Part shown: one piece after another, positions 34,764 to 41,755 of the stretch
Layout: the number at the start of each line of letters is the position of its first letter
Position numbering within the stretch: position 1 is the stretch's first letter
From: Klebsiella pneumoniae
GTDB lineage: Bacteria; Pseudomonadota; Gammaproteobacteria; Burkholderiales; UBA3065
DNA: 47,756 nt
Assembly: GCA_945897555.1 (NCBI GenBank)
Contig: CAMDGF010000011.1
Coordinates: 1 to 47,756 of the forward strand
Direction: 5' to 3'
Notes under the pieces: model-generated
Databases searched by the model: none
What the model was told of the DNA's origin: nothing
What the model saw: only the letters and a program-made list of their open reading frames with translations
Position numbers and translations under genes: made by a program

Positions 34764-35810
34764 TCAGGTGAGCGCTGGGCGCGAGCCCGAAGGCTGCGGG
34801 TCGATAAGCATGGCGTCACCGTAACTGAAGAAACGGTAGCCCTGCGCGATGGCGTGCTGGTAAGCAGCACGGATAGGCTCGACTCCGCCGAGCGCCGACA
34901 CCAGCATCAGCAGGGTCGACCTGGGCAGATGGAAGTTGGTCATGAGCGCATCGATGACGCGGAAATCATACCCCGGGCGAATGAACAGCCCGGTCTCGGC
35001 GCTGCCGGCACGCAGACTGCCCTCTGCTGCAGCCGATTCGAGCGCGCGCAACGCGGTGGTGCCTACTGCCACCACGCGCCCGCCACGGGCACGGGCAGCA
35101 GCTACCGCATCGACCGTGGCCTGGGGCACCACCCACCACTCGCGGTGCATGATGTGCTCGTCGAGCTGGTCGACACGCACCGGCTGGAAGGTACCGGCAC
35201 CCACGTGCAGCGTGACCCACGCCAGCTCGATACCCTGCGCCTGCAGAGCGGCGAGCAGCGGCTCGTCGAAATGCAAGCCGGCGGTGGGCGCGGCCACCGA
35301 GCCGGGCTCGCGCGCAAAAACGGTCTGGTAGCGCGCCTCGTCGACGGCATCGGCTGCTCGCTCGATGTAAGGCGGCAAGGGCAGCCGGCCATGCCGCTCG
35401 ATCATTTCGAGCGCGTCGCCGTCGAAGCGCAGGTGGAAGAACTCACCGGCGCGACCCATCACCGTGGCACGGAGATCGCCGTCGAGTGCCAGCACGCTGC
35501 CGGCAGCGGGCGTCTTGCTGGCGCGCAGCATGGCAAGGACCTCGCGCTCTCCGACGATGCGCTCGACCAGCACCTCGACCCGACCACCGGTGGCCTTGGT
35601 ACCGCAGAGGCGCGCGTGGATGACACGGCTGTCGTTGAACACCATGAGATCGCCGGGGCAGAGCCATTGCGGCAAGGCCCGCACCCGCGAGTCGGTGATC
35701 TGCTCGCCTCGCAGGACCAACAGGCGCGACGCCGCCCGATCGACCAGCGGGACTTGGGCGATGCGATCAGGCGGGAGTCCGTAATCGAAATCGGCAAGCG
35801 TGAGCGGCAT
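34764..35810 (-). CDS. queA: S-adenosylmethionine:tRNA ribosyltransferase-isomerase
   Basis: A 348-residue enzyme adding the epoxycyclopentanediol precursor to preQ1-tRNA. It opens [15 protein letters not shown], and contains [38 protein letters not shown] and [19 protein letters not shown] 35810 gives the canonical N-terminus. First gene of the queA-tgt-yajC-secDF run. Confidence 0.97.
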
Positions 35811-35900
35811 GGGACGCGACTCTACCGCAGCCTCCCCCCGGTCGACAGCGCTTGATCTGGCGCAATGCACCGCCGGTAGCTGGTCAGTAGATTAACGGCC

Positions 35901-36707
35901 ATGAAGACCGACTCGACGCCACGCAAAGATCCGCTGACTGCCGAGACATCGCAGCGCGCCGATCGGCCGTCGATGCCCCGCCCCTTCCAGCCCTCTGCAT
36001 CGCCTAGCCAACTCGTGCAGGCGGTGTGCCGCAGCCGCATGGTGCAGGGCGGTGATGCGTGGGTCGAATTGTTGTCGCAAGCGCGACGCGAGAACCGCAA
36101 GCGCAACATCACCGGCGTGCTGGTACGACAAGGCGACGCCGTATTGCTGGTGTTGGAGGGAACGGCCGAGCGGGTCGGCGAGGTGCTCACTGCGATCGGC
36201 CGCGACCCACGCCATGTCGGGCTCTCGGTGCTGCGCGTGCGTTCGGCACTCAAACGCGATTTCCCCGGCTGGTGGATGGCGAGCACCCAACTCGATATCG
36301 ATCGCTTCATCCGCATCGAGCGGGCCTTCGCCAGCGACGACCCCGACGCCGGAAGGCGGCTGCGAGCCTTCATCGTCGATGGCGAGTGGATGCCGGAACC
36401 GACCCTGGGGGGCGCCGCACTGCTCACGCCGATGTCACGCCGCACCAATCATGTCGGCCTTGCCGCGCATGCGAATGGTGGCGAGACGGCAGCCAGCGCA
36501 GTGCGAGCCGTGCGCGTTCGCAGCGGCCTGACGCAGACGGAGTTCGCCCGACGCTTCGGCGTGCCACTGCACACCTTGCGCAACTGGGAACAGGGCAAGC
36601 GTGCGCCGACGGGAGCAGCGGCCACCCTCATCCGTATCATGACTGTGATGCCGGAGGTGGTCAGCGCGATCGCAGCCACGGCGCCACCGCTCATGCGTCC
36701 GAACTGA
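35901..36707 (+). CDS. Degenerate BLUF-like domain fused to a C-terminal XRE-type HTH
   Basis: A 268-residue protein. Residues about 38-135 align by eye with BLUF flavin photoreceptors of the AppA type: conserved N65, NITGVL (69-74), VLEG (84-87), RDPRH (101-105) and FPGWWM (121-126). The two residues that make BLUF photochemistry work are replaced: the flavin-site Tyr is Cys43 (AVCRS where BLUF has YRS) and the Gln is Leu83 (VLLVLEG where BLUF has FFQWLEG). Residues about 200-260 form an antitoxin/XRE helix-turn-helix (RSGLTQTEFARRFGVPLHTLRNWEQGKRAP). It is probably a transcription regulator that no longer senses blue light in the normal way, or that senses something else. ATG 35901 is used; ATG 35973 is also in frame. 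It may matter that tRNA-Leu follows. Confidence 0.8.
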   Translation: MKTDSTPRKDPLTAETSQRADRPSMPRPFQPSASPSQLVQAVCRSRMVQGGDAWVELLSQARRENRKRNITGVLVRQGDAVLLVLEGTAERVGEVLTAIGRDPRHVGLSVLRVRSALKRDFPGWWMASTQLDIDRFIRIERAFASDDPDAGRRLRAFIVDGEWMPEPTLGGAALLTPMSRRTNHVGLAAHANGGETAASAVRAVRVRSGLTQTEFARRFGVPLHTLRNWEQGKRAPTGAAATLIRIMTVMPEVVSAIAATAPPLMRPN

Positions 36708-37391: not shown

Positions 37392-38363
37392 ATGCACGAC
37401 GCCGAGCGCATCCATCGCATCGACCAACTCCTGCACGAGCGGCAGGTGGTGCCGCTGAGCGAGATGCTCAAGGCACTCGGCGTTTCGCGAGCCACCTTCA
37501 AGCGCGATCTGGCTTATCTGCGCGACCGCTTCAATGCGCCCATCGAGTACGACCGCGAACGTGGTGGGTACCGTTTTGCCGAACAGGGCCCCGGGCCGCG
37601 CTACGCCCTGCCGGGCCTTTGGTTCAGCGAGGCCGAGGTCGCTGCCCTCTTGACCATGAGCCAGCTGCTCGAGGAACTCGACAGCAACCTGCTGACCCCG
37701 CACATCCGGCCGCTGATGGCCCGCATCGACGCCATTCTCGGCGACGGCAAGGTGGGATCTGCGGAATTGCGGCGGCGCATCCGCATCACCCGTGCCGGCA
37801 CGCGCCCGCCGGCCAACCAGTGGTTCCCCGGCATCGGCCTTGCACTGCTGCGCCGCAAGCGCCTGTACATCCGTTACTACGGACGCGCCAGAGACGATGT
37901 GACCGACCGCGCGGTGTCACCGCAGCGCCTCGTGCATTACCGCGGCAACTGGTATCTCGATGCCTGGTGCCACCTGCGAGACGGCTTACGGAGTTTCGCG
38001 CTCGATGGCTTCCGTAGCATGCAGACCCTCGAGCAGCCCGCCACAGAGTGCACCGACGCTGAACTCGACGCGTTCTTCAGCGCCGGCTACGGCATCTTCT
38101 CGGGTGCCGATGTGCGCTGGGCCCGGCTGCGCTTCAGCGCCGAGCGCTCACGTTGGGTAGCGGCCGAGCATTGGCACTCACAACAGCGGGGTGACTTTGA
38201 TGAGATGGGACGCTATGTGCTCGAAGTGCCCTATTCCGATCCACGCGAGTTACTCGGTGAGGTGTTGCGGCACGGCAGCAGCGTGGAGGTGCTGGATCCA
38301 CCGGAGATACGCGAGATGTTGCGCGCCGAACTGCGAGCTGCACTGACGCTCAGCGGCGGCTGA
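37392..38363 (+). CDS. WYL-domain transcriptional regulator (YafY type)
   Basis: A 323-residue regulator. An N-terminal winged HTH (MHDAERIHRIDQLLHERQVVPLSEMLKALGVSRATFKRDLAYLRD, about 1-50) is followed by a WYL domain (LYIRYYGRARDDVTDRAVSPQRLVHYRGNWYLDAWCHLRD, about 155-200) and a C-terminal WCX-type extension. WYL regulators sense ligands, often nucleic-acid-derived. Its 3' end overlaps the convergent MalY-like gene by 14 bases. A DNA palindrome lies upstream. Target genes are unknown; the ovothiol genes are the nearest candidates. Confidence 0.92.
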   Translation: MHDAERIHRIDQLLHERQVVPLSEMLKALGVSRATFKRDLAYLRDRFNAPIEYDRERGGYRFAEQGPGPRYALPGLWFSEAEVAALLTMSQLLEELDSNLLTPHIRPLMARIDAILGDGKVGSAELRRRIRITRAGTRPPANQWFPGIGLALLRRKRLYIRYYGRARDDVTDRAVSPQRLVHYRGNWYLDAWCHLRDGLRSFALDGFRSMQTLEQPATECTDAELDAFFSAGYGIFSGADVRWARLRFSAERSRWVAAEHWHSQQRGDFDEMGRYVLEVPYSDPRELLGEVLRHGSSVEVLDPPEIREMLRAELRAALTLSGG

Positions 38364-39552
38364 AGGCAGCCACACGACGCAGGCAGTCGGCCATGCGTGA
38401 GGGCGGAATGGCAAAGTTGAGCCGCATGAAGCCGCTGCCGCCGACGCCAAAGCGTGCACCCGCCGAGAGTCCGAGCCCAGCCTCGACCCAAGCGCGCATG
38501 AGGCGGGTATCGTCCATGCCGGTGCCACGGCAATCCAGCCACGCCAGATAGGTGGCCTCCGGCGGCGTGCCCTTGACCCATCCGTCGACAGCCGGAGTGA
38601 GCGCCTCGAACAGCGCGTCGCGGTTGGCGCGCAACACATCGAGGCAGGCATCGAGCCAGGTGTCGCCCTCTCGGTAAGCGGCCTCAAAGGCCACCAAGCC
38701 GAGCGGGTTGGCAACGCTCACGGGCAGTCGGCCGAACGCCTCGGCCAGACGACTGGCCACAGCGTCGCTGGACGAGATGACCGCCGAAAGGCCCAAACCA
38801 GGGATGTTGAAGGTCTTGCTTGGAGCCACGGCCGTGGCCACTGCATCCTCGGCGGTAGCGATCCGGCCGAGGGGGATGTGTAGCGGCGCATCGGCCGCTG
38901 CGCCGTGGCGCGGGGCGTAGACCAGGTCGGCATGGATCTCGTCGCTGAGGATGGCCATGCCGTGCCGCCGCGCGATGTCGAGCACCGCGCGCAACTCGTC
39001 CTCGCGCCAGACCCGCCCGACCGGGTTGTGCGGACTGCAGAGCAGCAACAGGCGTGCGCCCCCGCGCGCGAGCCCCTCGAGCCGGTCGAGGTCCATAGAG
39101 TAGCCAGCGCCAGACTCCCGCCCGCTGCCCTGCAAGAGCGGGTTCTCGAGCACGACGCGGCCCTGCCGGGTGACGGCGTCGAACAGCGGCGGGTAGACCG
39201 GTGGCTGTACCACCACGCCCTGCCCCGGTTCGGTGAAGGCAGCCACCGCCGCGTAGAGCGTGGGCACCACGCCGGGCGCGAGCGCGACGCGGTGGCCATC
39301 CACCTGCCAGCCATGCCGGCGCGCAAGCCAGCCGCTGAGCGCCTCCGGCACAGCGTCCGGGACCACGGTATAGCCATAGACCGGATGCGCCACGCGTGCC
39401 GCGAGGGCGGCCTGGACCGCCGGCGGCGCGGCGAAGTCCATGTCGGCCACCCAGAGCGGCTCGACCGCATCGGTGCCGAACAGACGCCGGCGCAGGTCGT
39501 ACTTCTCGCTGTGCGTACCCACGCGCTCCACCGGCTTGTCGAAGTCGAACAC
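38350..39552 (-). CDS. ovoB: MalY/PatB-type PLP C-S lyase, likely OvoB
   Basis: About 400 residues of a fold-type I PLP enzyme. It opens FDFDKPVERVGTHSEKYDL like MalY, has the PLP-binding Lys in APSKTFNIPGLGLSAV, and contains SPHNPVGRVW and SDEIHADLVY. Alone it would be called a cystathionine beta-lyase. Directly downstream of ovoA it fits OvoB, which cleaves the sulfoxide conjugate to 5-thiohistidine. I use GTG 39552 because homology to MalY begins there; GTG 39597 is also in frame. The 3' end overlaps the WYL gene. Confidence 0.85.
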   Translation of the reverse strand: MFDFDKPVERVGTHSEKYDLRRRLFGTDAVEPLWVADMDFAAPPAVQAALAARVAHPVYGYTVVPDAVPEALSGWLARRHGWQVDGHRVALAPGVVPTLYAAVAAFTEPGQGVVVQPPVYPPLFDAVTRQGRVVLENPLLQGSGRESGAGYSMDLDRLEGLARGGARLLLLCSPHNPVGRVWREDELRAVLDIARRHGMAILSDEIHADLVYAPRHGAAADAPLHIPLGRIATAEDAVATAVAPSKTFNIPGLGLSAVISSSDAVASRLAEAFGRLPVSVANPLGLVAFEAAYREGDTWLDACLDVLRANRDALFEALTPAVDGWVKGTPPEATYLAWLDCRGTGMDDTRLMRAWVEAGLGLSAGARFGVGGSGFMRLNFAIPPSRMADCLRRVAAFSRR

Positions 39553-39613
39553 CGGCGAAGCGCCCCGAAGCCGGCTCAATGGCGCGCGGGGCTGCACCGA
39601 GGCGGTGCGAGAC

Positions 39614-41755
39614 TCAGGCCACCCTTTCCCACACTGTGACCTCGGCCAAGGTGTGCTGATGCTTGCGGCGCGTCTCGCGGATCACAAAAGCGACGTCGCG
39701 GGGCTCGCCGAGCATGCGGAAGTGCGGCGCCAGCGCGGCCTTGAGGGCATCGAGCGTGGTCCAGCTCTCGCCGTCCTTCTTGAAGCCGCCGAGCCAGTTC
39801 TCTTTGGATGTGTGGTCCTCGAGCCAGGTGTAGGGCGAGCTGAGCATGAGCACCCCGCCGACATTGAGCCGCTCGTGGATGCGGCCAAGGAAGGCCATCG
39901 GATCGTAGAGCCGATCGATGAGGTTGGCGGCGAGAATGAGGTCGTAGCCAGTGAGCACAGTCTTGAGGTTGCAGGCATCACCCTGCAGGAAATCGACCTT
40001 GCCGGCCACCTCCACCAGCCCTAGAGCGGCCAGCGTGCGCGTCTGGTAACTCACCAGATCACCCTCTTCGACGCGCTGATAACGCAGCTCGCCGGTATCA
40101 CGCAGCTGCACACCGGCGTTGATGAAGCGCGCCGAGAAGTCGACGCCGGTGACATGCCCGAAATGCTTGGCCAGCTCGAAGGTGGCGCGGCCGGTGGCGC
40201 AGCCCAGATCGAGCGCAGTCCGCGCCGGGCGGTCGCCGATGGCCGCGATGGCGATCTGCGCCAGCGCGCGCGGGAAGTTGGGCACGCCGAAGCACTCGTC
40301 GCCGAAGTGGAACTCCACATATTCGGCGAGCTGGCGATCGGATTCGTAATAGACGTTAGGCGCCACGGCAGGCGTATCGGTGACCACGTAGCGCAACCCC
40401 GCATGTTGGAAGAAATGACGGCGAAAAGCATAGCGCGAGGCGCGGATGCTCTCGTTGCCGCAAGAGGCCCACGAACCACCCTTCATGAGGTTGTGGCGGC
40501 CGTCGAAGGTGGGCGTGGAGAAATCATCGTAGATGTCGTGGACGCGGAAGCCCTCGAACGGGTAGATGGGCGTCTCGGTCCACTGCCATACATTGCCGAC
40601 CACATCAAAGAAGTCGCCCTGCGCGTGACGATCGACCGGGCAGCTCGAGGCCCCGTGGTCGAGGTGCAGGTTGGCGGCGGCCGGACGATCGTGCGGCACC
40701 TCGGCGATGCCGGCGACGTCGTACAAGCGATACCACTCGTCTTCGGTGGGCAGACGGTGGTTGCGGCCGGTGGTAGCGGTCATCCAGCGGCAGAAAGCGC
40801 GGGCCTCGAGGCAATTGACCTCGACCGGCCAGTTCCAAGGCATCGGCACCACCTCGGTCATCAGGCGCAGCTTCCAGGTGACACCCTCGCGCACCCAGAA
40901 GGTCGGCGCCTGCGCCAGCGAGTAGCGGCGCCAGCCCTCGCCCTCCTCGTCCCACCACTGCGGGTCGGCATAGCCACCCGCCTCGACGAAGGCCAGGTAT
41001 TCAGCGTTGCTGACCAGCATGCGGCCCGCCTCGAAAGCGGGGAGCTCGACCTTGCGCTCGCCGTACTCGTTGTCCCAGCCGTAGATCGGGTCGTCGAGGG
41101 CCTTGCCCATGCGTACCGTGCCGGCAGGCACTGGCACCAGCGCGTTGGCCGGGGCGTCGAAGGGCGTCGGGGCAGCGGCCAGCCCGCTGCGATCGGGCGA
41201 CCATGCCGCGAGCGGCCGCACGCGCCCGAGCGCGTGCTGACGGATGAGCACCGACGACGTCTCGAGGTGGATGCGCTCGTGCTCGACGCCCATGATGACG
41301 GCCCACCATGGGTTGTCCCAGTCGACCGGCAGCTGCAGCGGCGCCTCGCGGATGACACGATCGACCATGGCACGGACCTTGTCGCGATAGGCACGCACCG
41401 CGGCGGCGGTGGGCCAATCGTAATGCGCCTCGTTGAGGTCGTCCCAGCTCATCTCATCGACCCCCACCGCGAACATCGACTCGAAGCGCGGGTCGATGCG
41501 TTCGCTGATGAGCCCAGCCAGAACGAACTTGTTGGTGAAAAAGGTGGCGGTGTGCCCGTAATAAAAGATCAGCGGGTGGCGCAGGCTGATGGGCTTGGTG
41601 CGAAAGCTGTCCTCGTCCACCAGTGCCTCGAACAGCGACTCATAGGTGCTGAACGTGCTGTGGAAGTACTCACCCAGTGTCCGCCGGAAGGCGATCGGGT
41701 CGGTGGTGCGCAGGTCGGGGGTCCGCGGAAAGAGAAGTCGGGAGTCGTTGCGCAT
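39614..41755 (-). CDS. ovoA: 5-histidylcysteine sulfoxide synthase / mercaptohistidine methyltransferase OvoA
   Basis: A 713-residue three-domain enzyme. The N-terminal DinB-like domain (about 1-185) carries the non-heme iron site H159-x3-H163-x-E165 (VEHERIHLET), with H68 near (YYGHTATFF). A formylglycine-generating-enzyme-type sulfatase-modifying domain follows (about 205-455, MKGGSWASCGNESIRASRYAFRRHF in fragments), then a SAM methyltransferase (about 465-713) with ALDLGCATGRATFELA near residue 515. OvoA joins cysteine to histidine C5 with oxygen, and its methyltransferase domain can N-methylate the thiohistidine to ovothiol A. The paired lyase gene lies 61 bases downstream. Full length with no truncation. 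Confidence 0.95.
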   Translation of the reverse strand: MRNDSRLLFPRTPDLRTTDPIAFRRTLGEYFHSTFSTYESLFEALVDEDSFRTKPISLRHPLIFYYGHTATFFTNKFVLAGLISERIDPRFESMFAVGVDEMSWDDLNEAHYDWPTAAAVRAYRDKVRAMVDRVIREAPLQLPVDWDNPWWAVIMGVEHERIHLETSSVLIRQHALGRVRPLAAWSPDRSGLAAAPTPFDAPANALVPVPAGTVRMGKALDDPIYGWDNEYGERKVELPAFEAGRMLVSNAEYLAFVEAGGYADPQWWDEEGEGWRRYSLAQAPTFWVREGVTWKLRLMTEVVPMPWNWPVEVNCLEARAFCRWMTATTGRNHRLPTEDEWYRLYDVAGIAEVPHDRPAAANLHLDHGASSCPVDRHAQGDFFDVVGNVWQWTETPIYPFEGFRVHDIYDDFSTPTFDGRHNLMKGGSWASCGNESIRASRYAFRRHFFQHAGLRYVVTDTPAVAPNVYYESDRQLAEYVEFHFGDECFGVPNFPRALAQIAIAAIGDRPARTALDLGCATGRATFELAKHFGHVTGVDFSARFINAGVQLRDTGELRYQRVEEGDLVSYQTRTLAALGLVEVAGKVDFLQGDACNLKTVLTGYDLILAANLIDRLYDPMAFLGRIHERLNVGGVLMLSSPYTWLEDHTSKENWLGGFKKDGESWTTLDALKAALAPHFRMLGEPRDVAFVIRETRRKHQHTLAEVTVWERVA

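Follow-up and report, generated by a model that had tools for sequence, protein, structure and literature searches.

A BLUF domain without the photoactive tyrosine and glutamine, fused to a helix-turn-helix domain in a phototrophic genus, as a candidate light-independent regulator

The BLUF-HTH gene and its genomic setting

The window, the whole stretch of 47,756 nucleotides that was analysed, carries at 35901-36707 on the forward strand a gene for a 268-amino-acid protein in which, according to the open reading frame list and Pfam, an N-terminal, degenerate BLUF domain is followed by an XRE-type helix-turn-helix (HTH) domain; orthologues of this fusion were identified in three congeners. The BLUF core, delimited by Pfam, alignments and the structure model, comprises residues 38-127 (36012-36281, +). 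The PF04940 match (residues 53-127, E=1.1e-16, 61.1 bits against a gathering cut-off of 25) spans profile positions 18-92 only, because strand 1, which holds the photoactive Tyr, is the diverged part. Past the core lie two C-terminal helices (residues 133-166; 36297-36398, +), defined from the orthologue alignment and the structure model, which occupy the usual signal-transmission region of BLUF proteins; this segment is highly conserved across all orthologues, and the canonical paralogue has a similar one.

The HTH domain (residues 197-260; 36489-36680, +) was assigned from profile matches and the model. HTH_3 matches residues 201-240 (4.6e-8, 33.4 bits against a gathering cut-off of 23), and the nearest proteins are short antitoxin-like XRE proteins of the NadS, HigA-2 and MqsA type, all three of which families are matched. 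The curated NCBIfam cut-offs for NadS (37.4 against 60 bits) and MqsA (35.4 against 61.8 bits) are missed, and identity to the short HTH proteins is at most 56%, with an NWEQGKR-PTGAA motif in common. The XRE/antitoxin-type C-terminus proposed in an earlier, sequence-only reading of this DNA is thus borne out by the HTH_3 score and the family matches.

In the window genome and in the congeners that have it, the gene lies with queA on one side and tRNA-Leu on the other. In the fourth congener tRNA-Leu directly follows queA, which shows a clean absence of the gene. A toxin-antitoxin unit was considered and rejected as unlikely, because of these flanks and because no toxin-like gene was seen beside them. 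Elsewhere in the window (38350-41755, -), a PatB-family C-S lyase adjoins a full-length OvoA (5-histidylcysteine sulfoxide synthase plus methyltransferase), and the two are likely an ovothiol biosynthesis pair.

The host is a freshwater photosynthetic bacterium. Both pufL and pufM are present in all five genomes of the genus examined, which are therefore all phototrophs, and in the window genome bch genes adjoin pufL/pufM. At the end of contig 1 of G000 (L176-L177), bchI, bchC, pufL and pufM run to the contig end, in a small anoxygenic phototroph with a genome of only 1.8 Mb. No rhodopsin was found in a search run without a positive control.

Predicted fold

AlphaFold2 was given an alignment that combined the 268-residue protein, its orthologues, BLUF domains of other proteins and short HTH proteins. 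Mean pLDDT of the resulting model is 84; the BLUF part reaches about 95 and most of the HTH 93-95, and the linker at residues 177-193 is of low confidence. A ferredoxin-like BLUF fold and topology are predicted for the N-terminal domain; by Foldseek, the model core superposes on Slr1694 and AppA at 1.2-1.3 Å over about 98 residues, and the top matches among solved structures are all BLUF proteins. The sequence-only reading had named structure prediction as a check that could overturn it, and the outcome was a BLUF fold at high confidence.

The photoactive pair and the flavin pocket

Columns were assigned with a MAFFT alignment to other BLUF proteins and with an HMM alignment that took in 104 distinct BLUF domains of the loci retrieved, four of these domains being the orthologues. 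The column of the photoactive Tyr (AppA Y21) holds Cys43 (codon TGC, 36027-36029, +) and that of the photoactive Gln (AppA Q63) holds Leu83 (codon CTG, 36147-36149, +), the latter pairing directly with AppA Q63 in the HMMER alignment. Outside the orthologues, the first column is Tyr in 90 of the 91 domains aligned there and the second is Gln in 97 of 100. Loss of both residues was seen only in the four orthologues among the 104 domains, with nine others unaligned at the Tyr column; among those nine the Gln position is Tyr in one and Gly in one, and these two were scored at the Gln column only. Tyrosine is absent from the whole window protein, and so no other Tyr can stand in for the missing one; Cys43 is the sole cysteine of the protein. 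A single base separates each replacement from the codon in the paralogue (TAC to TGC, CAG to CTG). Chance, misalignment or sequencing error was rejected as the source of the pair, given the BLUF fold, the Cys/Leu pair in four species and the lack of Tyr in the protein. The alignments therefore agree with the earlier placing of Cys43 and Leu83 at the photocycle positions, with no alternative Tyr or Gln in either column.

Changes at these positions occur in other proteins too: three BLUF-like domains of the order or class have one photoactive residue altered (L171, L172 and L263; Tyr to His, Gln to Glu and Gln to Gly), and a tandem BLUF protein on contig 41 of congener G003 (L119/L178) has a canonical first domain and a second domain that is unaligned over the Tyr region and has Tyr for Gln.

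Loss of either Tyr or Gln abolishes BLUF photoactivation (PMC5899715). With the pair gone, the classical light state of a BLUF photoreceptor, in which bound FAD shifts to the red by about 10 nm, should be out of reach. Most flavin-contact residues remain. The pocket residues Ser45, Asn65, Leu74, Asp102, Arg104, His105, Trp124 and Met126 are invariant in the orthologues and occur in at least 90% of the canonical BLUF proteins having each column; they include the flavin-contact Asn (N65) and RH (R104, H105) residues. The ITG and LEG motifs are also retained, so that all the BLUF signatures listed in the sequence-only reading (N65, ITG, LEG, R104/H105, W124/M126) are present. On the strength of the retained residues, the protein likely binds flavin. 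Two further replacements are invariant in the family: Val81 in place of the pocket Phe and Trp125 in place of the Ser/Thr of the W-S-M motif, the latter found nowhere else among the 104 BLUF domains. Coming on top of the Tyr/Gln loss, Val81 and Trp125 could close the flavin pocket and so count against flavin binding.

It is possible to view the BLUF fold here as a flavin-free module for dimerisation or protein docking. The protein would then be a repressor, either constitutive or controlled by a partner, and might regulate its own gene through the upstream dyad described below. That Tyr, Gln and the pocket Phe are all lost, and that a bulky Trp fills the Ser/Thr position, speaks for such a module. 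However, invariance of the flavin-site residues N65, R104, H105, W124 and M126 is unexpected for a purely structural part, and this explanation is considered rather unlikely.

A second possibility is that the protein is still a light sensor, with the HTH responding to photoreduction of the flavin by a Trp (W124/W125) or to a Cys-flavin reaction. The phototrophy of all five genomes and the restriction of W125 to this family are consistent with such chemistry, as is the light-induced flavin electron transfer that persists in a BLUF domain without Gln, although the red-shifted state does not form (Fudim 2015, as cited in PMC4555020). Nevertheless, not only Gln but also Tyr, which normally donates the electron, is lost here. 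Solved BLUF structures have the Tyr side chain extending to Gln, and a Cys at the Tyr position would therefore be rather distant for forming an adduct with the flavin ring. Alternative photochemistry is for these two reasons regarded as improbable.

Conservation and distribution

Orthologues with 71-75% identity are present in three of the four other genomes of the genus, which are metagenome-assembled genomes of Betaproteobacteria, and all keep C43, L83, W125 and the HTH; the search for homologues with the Cys/Leu pair and an HTH that the sequence-only reading had proposed thus returned three. With synonymous sites near saturation, dN/dS is 0.07-0.15 for the BLUF part and 0.06-0.13 for the HTH part, and the CRS and LLVLEG segments are invariant across the four species. 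Loss of both photocycle residues and the absence of the gene from one congener might be taken as signs of ordinary decay towards a pseudogene. Given a BLUF-part dN/dS of about 0.1, the invariant segments and a conserved promoter spacing (see below), the gene is not decaying and such an origin is hardly credible. The earlier suggestion of a repurposed one-component regulator gains from the same data: BLUF and HTH lie in one chain, and that chain is under selection.

No BLUF-HTH fusion was found outside the genus in the sampled 399 genomes of the order and 369 of the class, and a sample scan of 85,000 genomes returned close relatives only. Carriage of the fusion by phages or plasmids was dismissed, as tblastn against both collections gave separate BLUF or HTH matches and none covering at least 80% of the query. 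In the genomes searched, the fusion is restricted to one phototrophic genus.

The window genome encodes two further BLUF proteins, both canonical. One, the short C7 paralogue, is among the closest BLUF proteins to the fusion (35-36% identity) and has in common with it a two-residue gap and a C-terminal extension; in a BLUF tree the fusion family groups with the genus paralogues, with weak support and on a long branch. This raises the possibility that light acts through a heterodimer in which C7 is the sensor and the fusion a light-blind DNA-binding partner. However, the fusion is the only BLUF protein found in G004 (91% complete), and no C7-type BLUF was found in G002 (82% complete), while both genomes keep the fusion. 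It follows from G004 that the fusion need not act via a canonical BLUF protein, and the heterodimer is decidedly improbable.

The promoter and the upstream dyad

The 90-base gap between queA and the fusion gene (35811-35900) contains a conserved dyad, TTGAY-N6-CAA (35852-35865, +), followed after exactly 22 bases by a candidate -10 element, TAGATT (35888-35893, +), with the ATG 7-8 bases further on (7 in the window; positions counted by hand). The spacing between dyad and TAGATT is identical in four species. The promoter is probably leaderless, in which case the dyad centre would fall at about -41.5. Class II CRP/FNR-type promoters have their site centred at -41.5. Compared with the FNR/CRP dyad TTGAT-N4-ATCAA, the TTGAY half is present whereas the other half is GCAA, an arrangement conserved in the four species. 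The dyad could be a CRP/FNR-type site or, equally, an autoregulatory operator.

The exact dyad occurs once per genome, at the promoter of the fusion gene, in the four genomes that bear it, and is absent from the fifth. This pattern also fits the flavin-free repressor considered above, should it regulate itself. Copies with one mismatch lie mostly within open frames, and no copy with at most two mismatches was found in the puf/bch stretch read, as would be sought for photosynthesis-gene targets. Genome-wide use of the dyad was rejected on the strength of the single exact site and of where most one-mismatch copies lie. In congener G003 a one-mismatch copy, GCTTGATCTGGCGCAAACC, lies upstream of an fnr gene (L249:1501-1519); it lacks the matching -10 spacing, which keeps the FNR reading hypothetical. 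On the opposite strand (35808-35824, -), an apparent TAGAGT element 8 bases before the queA ATG is conserved in four species, and the promoters of queA and the fusion gene are possibly a divergent leaderless pair.

Proposed mode of action

Given that a degenerate sensor is strictly preserved by selection, its input is probably something other than light. We tentatively favour a lineage-specific one-component regulator that has lost the photocycle and in which the BLUF domain serves in flavin/thiol redox sensing or as a dimerisation switch. The more specific reading, a naturally occurring 'dark BLUF' transcription factor of an aerobic anoxygenic phototroph, whose light-independent flavin/thiol redox sensor directly controls DNA binding, is possible, if held with some doubt. 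Its fold and most of its flavin contacts being retained, the domain would most likely still bind flavin and would respond, independently of light, to the redox state of the flavin, of Cys43 in the place of the Tyr, or of both. From there the conserved C-terminal helices would relay the signal to the XRE-type HTH, where a change in dimerisation or orientation would alter DNA binding. From these features we infer flavin binding, the redox input via flavin or Cys43, the switching of the dimer and the existence of regulated targets; the conservation of Cys43, put forward in the sequence-only reading as a candidate redox residue, fits a redox role and is equally compatible with a structural one, Cys being in addition one base from Tyr.

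Comparison with known systems

The fold, most flavin-contact residues and the C-terminal helices past the core are like those of the BLUF photoreceptors (PF04940; AppA, PixD/Slr1694, BlrB, BlsA), whereas the Tyr/Gln pair of those proteins is here Cys/Leu, and the stand-alone, EAL or cyclase outputs of the photoreceptors are replaced by an HTH. That this output is unusual, as the sequence-only reading held, agrees with a 2014 survey in which 64% of BLUF proteins were short BLUF and 34% BLUF-EAL (PMC4844311). The search pattern of that survey required Tyr and Gln (PMC4844311), and degenerate BLUF domains were therefore excluded by design. In the literature searched, which was not exhaustive, no description of a BLUF-HTH regulator was found. 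On the output side, NadS, HigA-2 and the C-terminus of MqsA have a short XRE antitoxin-type HTH similar to that of the fusion, but here the HTH is joined to a BLUF domain, the neighbours are queA and a tRNA gene, and no toxin gene was noticed.

AppA of Rhodobacter sphaeroides, the PpsR antirepressor that integrates light and redox signals, is likewise a BLUF regulator of a bacteriochlorophyll phototroph with a redox theme. However, AppA keeps Y21 and Q63 and has no DNA-binding domain, whereas the fusion is predicted to bind DNA through the same chain. A parallel in mode of working is Halobacterium Bat, a redox-sensing HTH regulator with a LOV-like domain that lacks the photocycle cysteine (PMC4844311), although Bat is archaeal and multi-domain, and its LOV/PAS fold is not homologous to BLUF. 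A conserved BLUF domain without Tyr and Gln, joined to an HTH, makes it possible to ask in a natural protein whether the BLUF fold still signals once the photocycle is gone, a capacity already argued for in LOV domains, and whether BLUF proteins can sense redox state separately from light.
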